From IMG/VR virus record IMGVR_UViG_3300037882_001543, positions 1-45,447 of that record: a stretch of DNA of 45,447 nt, one strand, 5' to 3'. Source of the stretch: a virus. A program made the position numbers and the translations under genes. This document shows, in pieces, positions 4,493-27,861 of this stretch (the first letter of the stretch is position 1; the number at the start of each line of letters is the position of its first letter). The notes beneath the pieces are model-generated. The model was not told the DNA's origin and ran no database searches. It worked only from the letters and a program-made list of their open reading frames with translations.

Positions 4493-6160
4493 ATGATTAT
4501 TATACGCGGAAACGAGACACAAAGTCTACCCAATCAAACGGGCCTCCCAAATAGGCAATATGCGGGTGAGGGGAGCGCCTTAAGTGCGGCGGGGCCTGCG
4601 GTTGCGAATACTGCTAATAGGGGCGTGGCGTTAGGTGTTCAATTAAATGATCACTATGCACGACTAGAAGGGGCGCAAAAGGGCAAACAACTCCATAGCG
4701 ATTTGCGGAGTGCCGCGACCAAATTCCTCGATCAATGGGATCATGATTATGTTCAGCAAGGGGCGTCGCCTGACGTGTCCGTTGGTGCTGTGGAAGAGTT
4801 CTTCGCTAATCATGCCGCCGCTGACGCCTATAGTGACGCGACTAGTTCAGACAACCCCTATCTAAAACAATACGCGCAATCGGCCTTTGCGGATATCAAA
4901 GCCGATACCCTCGCCAAAGCTGTTCCTCATGCGCGTACCGGCTACATCGCCTTTGGACGGTCTAACATTGATGTCGAACTTGAAAAGGATAAAATCCAAG
5001 CTCTCCAAGCTGCAGCAGCGGGGCGTATAGAAGACTATAAGCGCATTTCTGACGGCTCTCTTTTGTATATTAACGACTTCAAGGGATCATTCCTCAACGA
5101 CGCTGAGGCCGCAAAAAAGGCACAAGAGTATTCTGAAGACCTTCAAACGCGACTTGCGACACAAACAGTCGCCAAGCATCCGCAGGAGTTTCTTGACGGT
5201 TATTACACCGGTAAGTACGAAAAGATGAAGCCTAAGGAAGCCCTCTCGCTTGTTGGAACGGCGCATAGTGCTCTACATAATCAAGCACAATTCGCGCAAC
5301 ATGCTGAAGTGGTCAAGCGCCAACAGGTTGAGGACTTAGCGAAGTCAACTGAGCAGGATTTCTATAGTCGTTCTGTTGAACGAGATAAGAATGGGCATCC
5401 CATTACATCAACGGAGATTCTTTTAGCTGAAGCTGGGGTAAGCATGGCCCTAGGCGATAAAAAGCCCCAGACGATTAGTTATCTTCAAGCTCGTCTTGCC
5501 CACGAGAAGGCCGGAACGAGTCATTTTGATGCGACCTACTTCAATCGTACGCTTTTACCGAACATCTACAAGGGTAAATACACGACCGAATTAGACGTGT
5601 TAAAAGCTGGAGCTGACTATCTCGATGCCCCCCACATGACACAAGCGATTGAGCAATTCCACACCTATCGTAACCAGGTCACGCATCGAATTACGCAGGA
5701 CTTTGACGCGGGTGAGCGACTTATTACCGGCACCTTTAAGCTACCTCCAGGCGCGTCTATTGACCCCGCTGGCGTGATGGAAGCGGGGAATCACGCCCTT
5801 GACCGTTATAATACGTGGTATACAGCGCAAGTTGCAAATGCCGCAAAACAAGGCCCGAATGCCCTGTCACTCGTCGATATTCAATCCCAGGCCCGCACGA
5901 TTAGAGACGAAGAGTACAGCCACCTCCAGAACAACCTCATTCCTATCCTCCAAGCGACCCGTAGTTCCTTACGGTACAAGACTGCAGAGGAGGTCAAAAA
6001 GGCCCACGAGAAGCGTGAGATTGAAACTCGTGAGGCCAATATGTACCTCCAGCAAATCCAATCCTTTGAGCATCTTCAGGAAATGTCTGCCAATAAAATC
6101 ACCTCATCCAGTAAGAGCGACAAGGGCAATAAAGGCGCCGCACGAATAGGGAAGGACTAA
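4493..6160 (+). CDS. Internal virion protein (T7 gp15-like)
   Basis: 555 residues, mostly helical and charged, with Gln/Ala-rich stretches, placed between the gp14- and gp16-like genes. T7 gp15 (about 750 aa) forms the periplasmic tunnel of the ejectosome; this protein is shorter, and the assignment rests mainly on position and composition. No catalytic motif was seen. The stated ATG lacks a clear Shine-Dalgarno site because the upstream bases are shared with the divergent lipoprotein gene. Its stop overlaps the start of the next gene (TAATG). Confidence 0.7.
   Translation: MIIIRGNETQSLPNQTGLPNRQYAGEGSALSAAGPAVANTANRGVALGVQLNDHYARLEGAQKGKQLHSDLRSAATKFLDQWDHDYVQQGASPDVSVGAVEEFFANHAAADAYSDATSSDNPYLKQYAQSAFADIKADTLAKAVPHARTGYIAFGRSNIDVELEKDKIQALQAAAAGRIEDYKRISDGSLLYINDFKGSFLNDAEAAKKAQEYSEDLQTRLATQTVAKHPQEFLDGYYTGKYEKMKPKEALSLVGTAHSALHNQAQFAQHAEVVKRQQVEDLAKSTEQDFYSRSVERDKNGHPITSTEILLAEAGVSMALGDKKPQTISYLQARLAHEKAGTSHFDATYFNRTLLPNIYKGKYTTELDVLKAGADYLDAPHMTQAIEQFHTYRNQVTHRITQDFDAGERLITGTFKLPPGASIDPAGVMEAGNHALDRYNTWYTAQVANAAKQGPNALSLVDIQSQARTIRDEEYSHLQNNLIPILQATRSSLRYKTAEEVKKAHEKREIETREANMYLQQIQSFEHLQEMSANKITSSSKSDKGNKGAARIGKD
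4499..4528 (-). promoter_or_regulatory. Candidate sigma70-type promoter for the lipoprotein gene
   Basis: On the minus strand a perfect -10 TATAAT (4499-4504) is preceded 18 bases upstream by TAGACT (4523-4528; four of six bases of TTGACA). It lies about 20 bp upstream of the lipoprotein start, inside the first codons of the gp15-like gene. The -10 is convincing; the -35 is weak. Confidence 0.5.
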
Positions 6161-19886: not shown

Positions 19887-20083
19887 TGGCCATTACCTCC
19901 GGCTAGCCCCGTTAAAGCTCGAATTTGTTTCCATAATTCGTATTCAAATTTTCTCTGCTCATCTGGGGTGTCCTCCTTAGTTGGGTATAAGATGGCTTGA
20001 AGATGTTTCGTTTCTTGCTCGCTTAATTCTAACGTGATTATTTGTGGTGGGAGTGGTCTCGGTCTCGTTGTTGTGATTTTCAT
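19883..20083 (-). CDS. Hypothetical small protein
   Basis: 66 residues from ATG 20083, preceded by AAGGAGG. Pro-rich N-terminus (TTRPRPLPPQ), then a Glu/Gln/Lys-rich helix. Located immediately downstream of the polymerase gene and coupled to it (ATGA). It may be a polymerase accessory peptide, but there is no direct evidence. Confidence 0.6.
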   Translation of the reverse strand: MKITTTRPRPLPPQIITLELSEQETKHLQAILYPTKEDTPDEQRKFEYELWKQIRALTGLAGGNGQ

Positions 20084-22752
20084 GCCGCCTTGACCTCCTT
20101 GTTAAATTTATACTGTGACCGATCTTTTGTCTTATCATTTTCTAGTATGAACGGGTTGCCAAACTTCACTATTTTGAACAGCTCGCCACTATGCTCCATC
20201 AACTTCCAGCTCCCCGGAAACGGAACCGCCATACCGTTTATCGTCCTCGGCTGCTCGCATATCTTCCTAACCCCTTCAGCGAGTTCTGCTGTGAATTTGC
20301 TTATAGGGACTTCAAAGAAAAACGAATCGTGTCTGGTATAGAACACCGTCAAGAAAGAGTAGGTTGCGATGGTTTCGATGATGCCTAGGTTCAGGATATC
20401 GACACCCCCCGCTTGCATCTTGTGATTACAAGCTTCTCGTTCGACAGACTGTCCTTGCCCGAAGAAGACACGCAATCTATTGGCCCAAGATCGAACCCGT
20501 TTCTCTCTAGCAAGTTTTTTAATGTTTCGATGGAATTGAGCGACGTTCGGATCCTGCTGGATGACAAGGCGAGACGCCTTTTCCATCGCTGCTTTGGGGA
20601 CCCCAAGTTTCACCGCCTTTCGTATGGCATTAGCTCCAGTGCCCATGTAATATCGTTCGTATCTGACGTTCTTTGATACCGTACGTCGTTTATCTTCCTT
20701 CCCGCCCCAGCCTACTTTCTCACGCCACGCTTCACACTCTGGCGAGGAGTGCGGATTGGCTTGATTGGGGGGGTAGGACCACCCAAACATATCGCAGACG
20801 AGAAGGGTATGGATGTCAAGCTTTTCATTGAACGATTTTTGCAAGTAGGTAGATTTCGCCTCAGCCATGAAAATACGCGGTTCTTGCGCATCATAGTCAG
20901 CTCCAAATAATACATACCCTTCATCGGGTACGTAGATGGGTAGAAAATCATTCGGCACCTTCGCTAAGGCTGGATGGGTTGTACTCCATCGTCCACTCGC
21001 CTGGGCGTCGTGTCTAAATGAGGGATAGACTCGTTCATATCCTCTGATAGGCAAAAGGTCTTGATTAAGGGCTTGTTGGTAAAAGACACACGCCGCACGA
21101 AGCTCAAGTAACGGGCTTGCCCCCTGTTCGATCCGGGATAGGACGTATTCACCGGTGAAGCCATGCTTATCCTCCTGTTCTCGGTTAAAGGGGAGGTATT
21201 TATCGCGTTCGGTGGCTATGGTTTCTTCATCCACGCTTTTAAGATCGACGCCTTCATACGTCTTAAGGTGCCGGGCGAGTTGCCCTTTGGCGCCTGTAGA
21301 CATAATGTTGAGCGGATAGCCCGCGTAAACACTCGACATTGCTTGGAATTCATTAGCCCTGCTGTGATAAGTATCGATGAGTTCGGTAAGCCTCGTTTGG
21401 TCAATTTGTATGCCTTTCACCTCCCGTTCAAGGGTGAGGGGTATTAAAGGAAGTGACTGAGACGTGTAGACTTGGTACGTCAAAGGGTCGGCTTTGAATT
21501 CCCGCATCAAGGCCTCGTAGACCACTAACGTCTCAATCACATCGCCCCAGTTATATAACAGCTCATCTTCCCCAGCTAAGTGCTTAAGCTTGGGGTAGTG
21601 GCCGTAGATAGACGCCAAGAACCCCAGCCCATGCCTCATCTCGCTCCAAAGGACCGAGTGCATATGCATCGTGTCGTCTATGGCTTTATACTTGCTCCAG
21701 TGGACATGAAGATTCTGCGCAATAACGGGTAAGTCCGCCTTTGCATTTTGGAAGACAACTTTGACCAATTTAACAAGGACAGCAAGGCGGCGTATAAATG
21801 CGGACCTAATAGCCGACGTAACTTCCTCATTTCCAACCCACTCAATCTGTACCCCGTCAATAATTCCATCTGCATTTCTCCAGCCTATCCCAATCATGTT
21901 GAGGAACTTCGTCACGGGATTATATTCTGTGTCAATAACTACAAAGGTGGCTTGTTCTGCCCTATCGAATGCAGCGTTGACAGCGCCGATATTACCAGCG
22001 GCAATACATCGTCGAGGAATTTCCTTGGGCCATTCGCCACGTAGATAGCGGCCAATTCTTTTCCAATCGAGTCGTGCGGTAATTCGCTTGGCGGGTGCCT
22101 TGAAGAAATCTCCAATGTCCTCAACTACAAAGACAGGTATTCCCGCATGAACTGCTGACCCATCCAGACCGTCGAGCGTGATAGAGGCTCGTTGGGGTTG
22201 TACATATTGTGGGCCTAGAAACCCCCGCCACTTCTCAATCGGTCCCCCGCCAGTACCATCGGTCTCCTTCGTCGTACGTTTCGATAAGGCTCTGTGCGTT
22301 TTCGATAGAATCGGTTGGGTGTACTCGAACGCCGGACCCCCCATCGTCACCACTAAGCTCGTCGTAGCAGGAATGCTCAGATGTGCCGTGGTACAGTGGC
22401 TCATTGCAGCCTTCAATACGGCGCCTTTTGGGAGGAAGTCTACCCGTTTCCCGTTCACTTGGTAACGGCACTTGATGACGTGGCATAGAGATGTGTCCTT
22501 TTCACCTGTTAAAGGAAGGTAGGTTTCTCGTAGTTGATAGCCGGTCATGCCTATTAAGGGCTGCGGCTCTATTTGCTCGTAGATGGGGTGCTTGGCGTCA
22601 TACCCCGCCATGCGTTTCCCGTGTTCGTCATGCTTACCGGGAGACATGGCTAGTATTGTGAGCCTTGAACCTGGTACAATAATGTCCGGTACGAAGCCCT
22701 TGCCGTCGCCGTACAAAGGACAGCCTAGGCATGTGGGGGGTTTAGCGAGCAC
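20080..22752 (-). CDS. Family A DNA polymerase fused to N-terminal UDG-like domain and 3'-5' exonuclease
   Basis: 890 residues from GTG 22752 (GGAG eight bases upstream). Residues 1 to about 240 resemble uracil-DNA glycosylase family 4/5: CLGCPLYGDGKGFVPD (Cys8, Cys11), LAMSPGKHDEHG, and IKCRYQ (Cys95) with Cys120, a possible Fe-S ligand set; the usual catalytic GEAPG and HP motifs are degenerate. Residues 265-430 are a DnaQ-type exonuclease (VIDTEYN; FQNAKADLP; YNWGD). Residues 430-890 are PolA: SGRWSTTHPALAKVP, motif A FGADYDAQEPRIF, motif B RTVSKNVRYERYYMGTG, motif C RHDSFFFE (Ser in place of the usual Glu after HD). Phage SPO1 polymerase is, to my knowledge, a precedent for an N-terminal UDG-like domain. 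This is the replicative polymerase. Confidence 0.9.
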   Translation of the reverse strand: MLAKPPTCLGCPLYGDGKGFVPDIIVPGSRLTILAMSPGKHDEHGKRMAGYDAKHPIYEQIEPQPLIGMTGYQLRETYLPLTGEKDTSLCHVIKCRYQVNGKRVDFLPKGAVLKAAMSHCTTAHLSIPATTSLVVTMGGPAFEYTQPILSKTHRALSKRTTKETDGTGGGPIEKWRGFLGPQYVQPQRASITLDGLDGSAVHAGIPVFVVEDIGDFFKAPAKRITARLDWKRIGRYLRGEWPKEIPRRCIAAGNIGAVNAAFDRAEQATFVVIDTEYNPVTKFLNMIGIGWRNADGIIDGVQIEWVGNEEVTSAIRSAFIRRLAVLVKLVKVVFQNAKADLPVIAQNLHVHWSKYKAIDDTMHMHSVLWSEMRHGLGFLASIYGHYPKLKHLAGEDELLYNWGDVIETLVVYEALMREFKADPLTYQVYTSQSLPLIPLTLEREVKGIQIDQTRLTELIDTYHSRANEFQAMSSVYAGYPLNIMSTGAKGQLARHLKTYEGVDLKSVDEETIATERDKYLPFNREQEDKHGFTGEYVLSRIEQGASPLLELRAACVFYQQALNQDLLPIRGYERVYPSFRHDAQASGRWSTTHPALAKVPNDFLPIYVPDEGYVLFGADYDAQEPRIFMAEAKSTYLQKSFNEKLDIHTLLVCDMFGWSYPPNQANPHSSPECEAWREKVGWGGKEDKRRTVSKNVRYERYYMGTGANAIRKAVKLGVPKAAMEKASRLVIQQDPNVAQFHRNIKKLAREKRVRSWANRLRVFFGQGQSVEREACNHKMQAGGVDILNLGIIETIATYSFLTVFYTRHDSFFFEVPISKFTAELAEGVRKICEQPRTINGMAVPFPGSWKLMEHSGELFKIVKFGNPFILENDKTKDRSQYKFNKEVKAA

Positions 22753-23169
22753 TTAGAATCTCCATCCAGTTTGTAAGGCAATTAAATCCAGGCCGATATT
22801 CGGCTGTTCCATATGAGCATTTGACAGGTGCAAGTACTCAATTGCCACTCTCGCCTTTCCAATACCTGCCATTAATTTAACGCCTACCTCAAATTGCGTC
22901 TGTTGTGGTAATTCATGAATAGGATTGGCGGCATAGGAAAGCCCCGTAAAGGGCTGGACAGTCAACGTATATTCGTCTACTTGATATTGAAGGCCATAAT
23001 GAACGCCTCCCATGTAGACATTGCTCGTTGCTGCCTTCACATGTGCCCCTAGCCCACGTTCGCAGGTCTGGATTTCAACGATGGGGCTGTCTATATTTGT
23101 CGTATGGTAATGATTCACAGGAACGGTCAGTAAATAGCCAGCGAGTAATAGCGGCTCAAGGCAGAACAT
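22753..23169 (-). CDS. PagL-like lipid A 3-O-deacylase / outer-membrane barrel
   Basis: 138 residues from ATG 23169 (GAGGAG ten bases upstream), with a hydrophobic N-terminus that may be a signal (LEPLLLAGYLLTVPV). The rest is alternating strands (VYMGGVHYGLQYQV, YTLTVQPFTGLSYA, FEVGVKLMAGIGKARVAIEY) ending with an aromatic Phe (TGWRF), as in outer-membrane barrels. The C-terminal YLHLSNAHMEQPNIGLD matches the PagL catalytic segment: His114 and Ser116 equal His126/Ser128 of P. aeruginosa PagL, and Asp128 falls at the spacing of Glu140 (from memory of PagL). PagL removes the 3-O-acyl chain of lipid A. Directly upstream of, and coupled to, the polymerase gene. Confidence 0.8.
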   Translation of the reverse strand: MFCLEPLLLAGYLLTVPVNHYHTTNIDSPIVEIQTCERGLGAHVKAATSNVYMGGVHYGLQYQVDEYTLTVQPFTGLSYAANPIHELPQQTQFEVGVKLMAGIGKARVAIEYLHLSNAHMEQPNIGLDLIALQTGWRF

Positions 23170-23171
23170 GT

Positions 23172-23480
23172 TTACTCTCTCCTCTTGTCCAGGACGGCGA
23201 GTGGGCATTTATGTGTCGAAACTGATTCCGTCAGGCATTCCTTCCTTACTGAGTCCCATTGGCGCAGCGCCCACATCGCCGCTTTCATCTTGGCGAGACA
23301 CTTATCTTTCGTGAGTGCCTTATCGTCACCGTTCAGATATTGTTTGTAGGCTTCCCAGGTTGAGTCATAACAAAACGCGTCCTCCCCGCAGAACCTACCC
23401 GGGCCAGCCAGCCAATCCTCAGCCCCCACCGGCACAGCCAGCGTGAGGAGGAGGCTTGCTAATATAAGCGTGCGTGTCAT
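23172..23480 (-). CDS. Secreted Cys-rich periplasmic protein
   Basis: 102 residues with a clear Sec signal peptide (MTRTLILASLLLTLAVPVGA, cleavage near residue 20). The mature part has five Cys (FCGEDAFCYD, KCLAKM, ECLTES, KCPLAV) likely to form disulfides, in a mostly helical context. Family not recognised. It is followed by the PagL-like gene, so both act in the envelope. Its stop and neighbours' starts are close, consistent with one operon. Confidence 0.72.
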   Translation of the reverse strand: MTRTLILASLLLTLAVPVGAEDWLAGPGRFCGEDAFCYDSTWEAYKQYLNGDDKALTKDKCLAKMKAAMWALRQWDSVRKECLTESVSTHKCPLAVLDKRRE

Positions 23481-26127: not shown

Positions 26128-26985
26128 TCACCCCACGTAGATTTTCCCCTCGGTTATTAATGTGTGTTGATTCGCAATGGCGTACACCTCATCGAGGGCC
26201 TTTGATATTTGAGCATCTAGCTTAGTCCAATCTTGCGCCACCTCCCTTGGTAGTTTGAGTTTTTGTGTCACTTCAATCGGCAACTTCATGCCCGCGCCCC
26301 AGACCCAGCCGCCTGGTTGCGTTTGCCAATAATACCTTGTCGCAGCCCCGACACCCTCAATACCACAATTCAGCACAAGCGAGAATTCACCCATGATCTT
26401 ACGGGCTGCTTGTCCAGGAAGGTCAGGGTAGACATGCTTTTTCTTCTTACCCTCGGCACTTTGATCCATGGGATTGTCTTGTTCGGCGCCATCCCAACAG
26501 GTCAAGACCGCATACTCAACGCTACTGGAAAGGATCAGGTCAATGTATTCCCAGAATAACGAATGGGCCTTGCTGTATAGCTTCGGCTCGAATTCTTCGC
26601 CAGTATAGTTACAGCCTCCACATACACTTGCCAGGATGACTTGATAGGCTTTATGTATGCCATCCCCAAAGAACGTCTTCACCGGCCCATGTTTACCTGC
26701 AAGGATGTCAATCGTCGTCTTGCGCATCTCAGCACTGATAGCCCGCCAATCCTGAGGCTTCGTCACGTCAATGTCATCGGGTATTAGGGCAATTAATGGC
26801 TGTCCATCTTGTGTCGTGAATGATAGTGACGAACTGCCCTTCTCTTTAGGAAAGATCTGCCCAATAACAGGACCAGGCCAAGTACGCAAGCTGGTAGACT
26901 TGCCGCTATTAGGTGGGCCATTGAGTAATACTCGCCTGAACTTCTTTCGTAAGGTATCAAGGTCTCGGTTTGAGCTATAAGCCAA
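26128..26985 (-). CDS. AAA/RecA-type ATPase, Sak4-like recombinase candidate
   Basis: 285 residues from TTG 26985 after AAAGGAGC. Walker A GPPNSGKST at about residues 23-31; Walker B candidate TFFGDGIHK near 107; later RKIMGEFSLVLNCG and WVWGAGMK. Phage proteins of this design (AAA_24/Sak4-type) anneal strands or help recombination-dependent replication. The pairing with the nuclease at 26986 and SSB-like gene at 25369 supports recombination. The start codon follows the upstream TAG directly. Confidence 0.75.
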   Translation of the reverse strand: MAYSSNRDLDTLRKKFRRVLLNGPPNSGKSTSLRTWPGPVIGQIFPKEKGSSSLSFTTQDGQPLIALIPDDIDVTKPQDWRAISAEMRKTTIDILAGKHGPVKTFFGDGIHKAYQVILASVCGGCNYTGEEFEPKLYSKAHSLFWEYIDLILSSSVEYAVLTCWDGAEQDNPMDQSAEGKKKKHVYPDLPGQAARKIMGEFSLVLNCGIEGVGAATRYYWQTQPGGWVWGAGMKLPIEVTQKLKLPREVAQDWTKLDAQISKALDEVYAIANQHTLITEGKIYVG

Positions 26986-27861
26986 CTACTTGCTCCTTTC
27001 TATCTTGACATATTGAACACTCATCGCCGCTTCATCTAGTGTGTGAGTAAGGCACGCATCCTCATACTCACAGGGACCCCATTTATCCTCGTGGACAGCA
27101 CTACCACCAATAGCCCGAGGCGATAAGCTCTTTAGGCTGGCCATGTCACCCCATAGAAAGGTGGCGTCCTTCAACCACAGCCCACTATCATAATAAGGCG
27201 AGGCCCCAAATGGCGCACTCAATTTGACATAAGGCGTGATCTTCTTACGATTCCCCGCCAACACAACAAGGACAATGTAGAAGCGTTTTGCGCCTGTCGC
27301 CCATTGATAATGAAACCGCTGCTGTGTCTTAGCGTGCTTATCAATTTCTGCATCAAGCCACTCGGGATCTAATTTGACCTTCAATTTATAATCCACAACA
27401 GCCGGGCCAAGCCCATCAAGAGGATCAGCCAAAACGTCAATTCGGCAATTTCCATGCGCCTCATAAGTTTTCTCGCTTTGTAAGATCCTCCAATCTTTCA
27501 TGGGGTTGTGTGCGTGATAGAGATGAACTGCTTGTTCTAATTTCAACGCGAGCAGGTCATAGAATGGTTCATCTTTTACGTGTACCCTTCTCCCCGCATC
27601 TAGGTACATTGCAAGCTGTTCATTCATCGCCCGTTGTCCGGCTGCGACTATTTCAACAACGGGTAGGGTTTTCACACCCTCAATGAGCATGGCATTGTAG
27701 AGATTCATGGACACGGAAAAGCCAGTCCCTAATACCGCACAAAGTTCGGGGTACAAAATCATGCGAGGTTTCCACCCCGCTCTATTCAAGGCCCATTTGC
27801 GAGGACATTTGGAAAATGTCTCAGTCGCACTGGGGCTAAATACAGGCGTTAATTCCTGCAT
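26986..27861 (-). CDS. PD-(D/E)XK nuclease, RecB/Cas4-like
   Basis: 291 residues, ATG after AAGGAG. N-terminal FSPSATETFSKCPRKWALNR is the typical Cas4/RecB start with a Cys; the catalytic pattern is RIDVLADP (Asp), then about 12 residues on VVDYKLKVK (D-x-K), and a downstream QRFHYQWA helix (Q-x3-Y). A C-terminal CEYEDACL pair with the N-terminal Cys could bind an Fe-S cluster as in Cas4. Likely a 5'-3' exonuclease producing single strands for the recombinase next to it. Confidence 0.82.
   Translation of the reverse strand: MQELTPVFSPSATETFSKCPRKWALNRAGWKPRMILYPELCAVLGTGFSVSMNLYNAMLIEGVKTLPVVEIVAAGQRAMNEQLAMYLDAGRRVHVKDEPFYDLLALKLEQAVHLYHAHNPMKDWRILQSEKTYEAHGNCRIDVLADPLDGLGPAVVDYKLKVKLDPEWLDAEIDKHAKTQQRFHYQWATGAKRFYIVLVVLAGNRKKITPYVKLSAPFGASPYYDSGLWLKDATFLWGDMASLKSLSPRAIGGSAVHEDKWGPCEYEDACLTHTLDEAAMSVQYVKIERSK

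Follow-up and report, generated by a model that had tools for sequence, protein, structure and literature searches.

A Phage-Encoded, Predicted PagL-Like Outer-Membrane Barrel Protein without a Recognisable Cleavable Signal Peptide, Placed by the Replication Genes of a Podovirus-Type Contig

Results

A PagL-Like Gene Directly Upstream of a DNA Polymerase Gene

The window analysed in this study, a virus contig of 45,447 nucleotides, has the marks of a podovirus, encoding tail tubular proteins, a T7-like tail-fibre N-terminus, an internal virion protein, a head-tail adaptor and a terminase. A gene for a predicted PagL-like outer-membrane β-barrel hydrolase lies on its minus strand at positions 22753..23169, the coordinates of the initial annotation. 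The gene reads from an ATG (23169-23167) to a TAA (22755-22753), encodes 138 amino acids and, as read in its start region, has a Shine-Dalgarno sequence (AGGAGAG) shortly 5' of the ATG.

The neighbouring gene downstream (20080..22752, minus strand) encodes a DNA polymerase A, as identified by Pfam (DNA_pol_A and DNA_pol_A_exo1) and PHROGs (phrog_17, DNA polymerase). Its GTG start codon at 22752 lies immediately 3' of the pagL TAA, and its Shine-Dalgarno sequence (GGAG) is located inside the pagL codons for the final G-W-R-F, 7 nt 5' of the GTG, in agreement with the coupling of the two genes described earlier. The polymerase has a long region N-terminal to the 3'-5' exonuclease domain, with CLGCPLYGDG as the first residues; by eye, this region resembles an iron-sulphur or uracil-glycosylase-like domain, and Pfam gave the exonuclease and PolA domains only.

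Upstream, the stop codon of a 102-aa gene (23172..23480, minus strand) lies 2 nt ahead of the pagL ATG. Its product, with several cysteines and a clear, normal-looking signal peptide (MTRTLILASLLLTLAVPVGA), is of the secreted or periplasmic type, and no family above noise was found for it in Pfam or PHROGs. The minus-strand replication/recombination region in which pagL and the polymerase gene lie also contains, farther upstream, genes for a Sak4-like recombinase (26128-26985) and a PD-(D/E)XK nuclease (26986-27861), both assigned by Pfam/PHROG matches.

Assignment to the PagL Family and Predicted Fold

In Pfam, the 138-aa protein scored 35.5 bits for the PagL family (PF09411), above the cut-off of 23 (E = 1.3e-8). 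Each of the 26 viral relatives that were aligned matched the same family at E ≤ 0.01. The profile match covers residues 54-137 only, comprising the catalytic hairpin (β7-β8) and strands 4-6. AlphaFold2 predicted an eight-stranded barrel (pLDDT 93.5, pTM 0.85) with strands at residues 7-16, 28-34, 39-47, 51-64, 67-80, 91-103, 106-116 and 127-137. The best PDB match of this model in Foldseek was PagL (2erv; TM 0.66), with nearly equal scores for OmpX, Ail and NspA. Since the similarity to these proteins is almost as strong as that to PagL, catalysis is not provable from the fold alone.

A profile built from the phage relatives gave PagL 2erv as its sole strong match in the PDB (E = 8e-14), and a phmmer search of the PDB with the single window protein gave chance ABC-transporter matches only. 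The window protein had no match in PHROGs at E ≤ 0.01, the only one seen being phrog_15758 at E = 0.19, and matched no curated NCBIfam model at E ≤ 0.1. The hydrophobic alternation of its strands exceeded that of 97% of within-strand shuffles, with 2.8% reaching the observed amphipathicity, which fits a membrane barrel. The protein ends in GWRF138, so that the C-terminal aromatic residue used in BAM recognition, noted in the initial annotation, is present. The PagL assignment rests on fold, profile and residues together, and these bear out the earlier proposal of a phage-encoded, PagL-like outer-membrane enzyme.

Catalytic Residues and the Acid Position

In a profile alignment to 2erv, on whose sequence the PagL numbering was checked, His114, Ser116 and Asp128 fell in the columns of PagL His126, Ser128 and Glu140 with the same spacing. 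The segment H114-L-S116-N-A-H-M-E-Q-P-N-I-G-L-D128 (22786..22830, minus strand), which had been recognised by inspection before, is thus confirmed by the alignment, with the acidic residue 14 positions after the His as for PagL Glu140. The H-x-S-N-A-x4-P-N-x-G active-site block is identical in PagL and the window protein; among the phage relatives, H, S, PN and G are invariant and D is nearly so. Judged by strand parity in the predicted model, the three catalytic residues, which lie where strands 7 and 8 end, share the same hydrophobic, outward, lipid-facing side, and to that extent their expected meeting on the barrel is partly supported.

That Asp stands where Glu is usual had been regarded as a notable feature. 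We found that Asp is the commonest residue at this position in the phage homologues found and is widespread in bacteria. The H-x-S-N-A-x4-P-N-x-G pattern, searched as DNA, occurred in at least 119 stretches of IMG/VR; among the matches listed, most were Pseudomonas-type PagL proteins with Glu, apparently host genes in prophage records, and diverse phage proteins had Asp or, rarely, Asn. A direct peptide-pattern search of IMG/VR gave nothing. Patterns requiring Asp matched 27 and 19 viral stretches. The pattern with Asp had at least 119 matches in GTDB genomes; among those listed, most fell within open frames for PagL-like proteins in Bordetella, Achromobacter, Ralstonia, Pseudoalteromonas, Idiomarina, Bacteroidota, Omnitrophota and other groups, and a few (L239 and L147, for example) seem to be chance matches.

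One bacterial locus (L269) holds both published primers for Bordetella bronchiseptica pagL (PMC5107901) and reads HFSNAGIKEPNPGLD, that is, with Asp at the acid position. B. bronchiseptica pagL removed the 3-hydroxy-dodecanoyl (3-OH-C12) chain from meningococcal lipid A, as determined by mass spectrometry (PMC5107901), indicating that Asp at this position is compatible with 3-O-deacylase activity. On the basis of the viral and bacterial pattern matches and of this enzyme, the idea that Asp is a rare catalytic variant was rejected. Three PagL homologues of the genus Bordetella (L278, L279 and L281) have Asn at the acid position (HFSNASIKRPNPGLN), as do the phage loci L026, L027 and L112.

A Podovirus Subfamily Mostly beside Replication Genes

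The window protein belongs to a short-form subfamily found on seven contigs including the window, the six relatives showing 35-49% identity to it. The catalytic-block residues H, S, N, A, P, N, G and D do not vary among the seven members at 32-49% identity. The subfamily is under purifying selection, which is clear in two close pairs (dN/dS 0.23 and 0.03); a more distant pair gave 0.15 with saturated dS.

In four T7-like contigs, the gene order is DNA ligase, pagL, a small gene and PolA, with a T7-like helicase-primase upstream in the three whose contig covers that part. BLAST detected no similarity between the window PolA and the PolA of these four contigs. That pagL again stands ahead of a dissimilar polymerase in the window suggests that co-expression of pagL and replication genes is either favoured or an ancestral state. 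Two members (L063 and L079) have a TGATG overlap and a GGAGG before the following gene, matching the pagL/PolA arrangement in the window.

Two other members, L122 and L127, differ from the rest in having pagL beside tail genes, near a lysozyme-like gene in L122. The PagL-like barrel gene of L127 (9920-10399, plus strand) has tail-type genes on one side and the gene for a pectate-lyase-like tailspike on the other, and its product is a candidate virion-associated LPS deacylase. The window and T7-like members end in WRF, and the L127 homologue is without a C-terminal aromatic residue.

The N-Terminus of the Subfamily

A signal peptide, outside the definition of the catalytic domain, is usual in PagL proteins and would be expected of an enzyme inserted through Sec and BAM. 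The window protein, however, has no Lys or Arg in residues 1-15 and no A-x-A-type cleavage site, as a cleavable Sec signal peptide would have. Its hydrophobic, uncharged N-terminal segment (codons 7-16; 23122..23151, minus strand) is instead predicted to be strand 1, which closes the barrel and occupies the usual place of the signal peptide. This strand is hydrophobic throughout, without the in/out alternation of the other strands. Similarly, Lys and Arg were absent from the first 15 residues in all six subfamily N-termini examined. The N-terminus is strongly hydrophobic in six of the seven, with a 12-residue hydropathy of 2.1-2.3, and in these six the first strand is hydrophobic along its whole length. 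The L127 homologue, in which the hydrophobic N-terminus is absent, starts MDWNPHAYMGYVDTF after a clear Shine-Dalgarno sequence, and its model, predicted independently from subfamily sequences alone, has eight strands from residue 6 (pLDDT 84.4).

In L079 and L085, an in-frame stop codon lies directly 5' of the Shine-Dalgarno sequence, so that no signal peptide can be encoded upstream. The possibility that a signal peptide is hidden by a wrong start was rejected, as the longest frame in the window adds 13 residues with no typical signal and the stop in L079 and L085 excludes an extension. We also considered a seven-stranded barrel formed after cleavage of residues 1-22. This is disfavoured, as the catalytic His would lie about 92 residues from the N-terminus, compared with about 106 in mature L049, a canonical phage PagL protein used for comparison of mature length, and as an odd strand number matches no PagL.

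By comparison, the N-terminal sequence was long enough to be judged in 40 of the other viral homologues; 39 of these have a hydrophobic signal-like segment, and 38 of the 40 have Lys or Arg just before it; the exception without such a segment, L025, is truncated by the locus end. A profile of the subfamily N-terminus found nothing in 399 Pseudomonadota genomes, a weak search run with no positive control. Taken together, these data and models suggest that the subfamily seems to be without a recognisable cleavable signal peptide, its translation beginning at the first barrel strand. This apparent absence, which the initial annotation had overlooked, is the remarkable feature of the protein, rather than the Asp.

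Other PagL-Like Proteins in Phages

Other PagL-like proteins were found on about 40 viral contigs, some of them matching phrog_15758, in mixed neighbourhoods of terminase, tail or lysis-type genes; those of L016, L035 and L036 are near terminase. In L260 (7611-8539, plus strand), the homologue overlaps the last part of a gene that matches M15 peptidases (endolysin-like) weakly, below the Pfam cut-off, an arrangement that suggests a lysis-cassette role in that phage. On the 113-kb viral contig L257 (9608-11276, plus strand), the homologue precedes genes for a collagen-repeat tail-like protein and a phage peptide deformylase, and in L251 a subtilase-family protease gene (4562-5293, plus strand) lies near the phage PagL homologue. 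No relative was found in cultured phages by tblastn, a query with L124 giving matches of E ≥ 1 only, and a sequence search of about 50,000 annotated phage genomes with six queries found no phage lipid A deacylase.

Discussion

The data presented above suggest that the window gene probably encodes an outer-membrane PagL-type esterase that is made with the replication genes and remodels lipid A during infection. The putative enzyme would be an eight-stranded outer-membrane barrel with a lipid-facing Ser-His-Asp triad, and would most likely act on lipid A of the outer-leaflet LPS, cutting off its 3-O-linked primary acyl chain or an ester much like it. It would be made together with the phage DNA-replication proteins, and the host surface would then be remodelled during phage replication. 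The initial annotation expected it to be made early, which is plausible in view of the replication operon in the window and the ligase-polymerase site in the four T7-like contigs, but a position of this kind would usually mean the middle class rather than the immediate-early one. Its purpose, as proposed in the initial annotation, may be the blocking of rival phages, relief of envelope stress or preparation for lysis. The most plausible purpose would be a weaker re-adsorption by sibling or rival phages, with modified LPS being shed as vesicles. In Salmonella, PagL activity raised vesicle release about 4-fold (PMC4958258), which offers a plausible route to the shedding or masking of receptors.

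Delivery to the membrane is the weakest step of this explanation. Since the first strand is hydrophobic and non-alternating, it might also act as an export signal that stays uncleaved, and our guess is that this uncharged segment does so. More broadly, we tentatively suggest that the deacylases of the subfamily may be made without a cleavable signal, either with the first strand as an uncleaved export signal or with a phage route, through the virion or lysis, that bypasses Sec; either route, if true, would be an unusual one for an outer-membrane barrel in bacteria. A rival reading, in which the barrel stays unexported during infection, travels with the virion (inside it or on its surface) or leaves the cell at lysis, and inserts from outside to act on LPS at entry or exit, appears unlikely. 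It would accord with translation starting at strand 1, with the stop codons of L079 and L085 that leave no place for an upstream signal peptide, and with the L127 homologue, which lacks both the hydrophobic N-terminus and the terminal aromatic residue and whose gene is flanked by tail-type genes and one for a tailspike-like protein. However, the gene is in a replication cluster, not a virion cluster, in the window and the four T7-like contigs, the strongly hydrophobic N-terminus of six of the seven members would be needless in a cytoplasmic protein, and the C-terminal WRF of the window and T7-like members is of the kind seen in outer-membrane proteins.

Deacylation of LPS could also weaken the outer membrane and ease the opening of the cell, beside or replacing spanins. 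We regard such a lysis function as doubtful for the window subfamily, whose replication operon is the wrong time class; the overlap with the M15-like gene in L260, the terminase neighbours in L016, L035 and L036 and the lysozyme-like gene in L122 point towards it, but the M15 match is under the Pfam cut-off and the neighbours of the other homologues are mixed. A PagL-fold hydrolase acting on another substrate, for example a phospholipid of the outer leaflet or an O-acyl group of LPS, would be consistent with a PagL profile match confined to residues 54-137 and with the different loops, but is improbable given that the active-site block is the same in PagL and the window protein. Outer-membrane barrels without catalytic residues are found in many phages, and a catalytically dead barrel might act as a structural plug or receptor mask; this seems very unlikely here, as a catalytic block invariant in seven of seven members at such low identity is hard to explain well except by selection on the active site.

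We therefore prefer the hypothesis of an active PagL-type esterase. Phages modify O-antigen and carry outer-membrane barrels. About 40 uncultivated phages appear to carry a gene for a PagL-type lipid A deacylase, and our search of the open literature found no description of a phage-encoded PagL or lipid A deacylase. New here is a small podovirus PagL subfamily that has no recognisable cleavable signal peptide and is placed by replication genes in the window and the four T7-like contigs. If true, lipid A editing with the replication genes would be a means of remodelling the host outer membrane in lytic infection, and a barrel without a signal peptide raises the question of how such proteins get to the outer membrane.

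In comparison with known systems, the window protein shares with Pseudomonas aeruginosa PagL (2erv) the eight-stranded barrel, the H-x-S-N-A-x4-P-N-x-G-x-acid block with identical spacing, the lipid-side location of the catalytic residues and an acid borne by the C-terminal strand. Unlike PagL, it has Asp at the position of Glu140, its strands 2-3 and its loops are shorter, it shows no signal peptide that can be recognised, and its gene lies in a phage replication operon; its structural sequence identity to PagL is about 12%. B. bronchiseptica PagL, a proven enzyme, has Asp at the same position but is the product of a cellular gene with an open frame of about 190 aa, and homologues of the genus Bordetella, unlike the window protein, have ordinary signal-peptide-like N-termini. 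The other phage PagL-like proteins belong to the same family and likewise have Asp (sometimes Asn) at the acid position, whereas they carry a cationic, hydrophobic signal-like N-terminus ahead of strand 1 and lie in different neighbourhoods. OmpX, Ail and NspA resemble the window protein in their eight-stranded fold and similar Foldseek scores, but are unmatched by the profile of PagL relatives that finds 2erv and are not known to have an H-x-S ... D catalytic motif.
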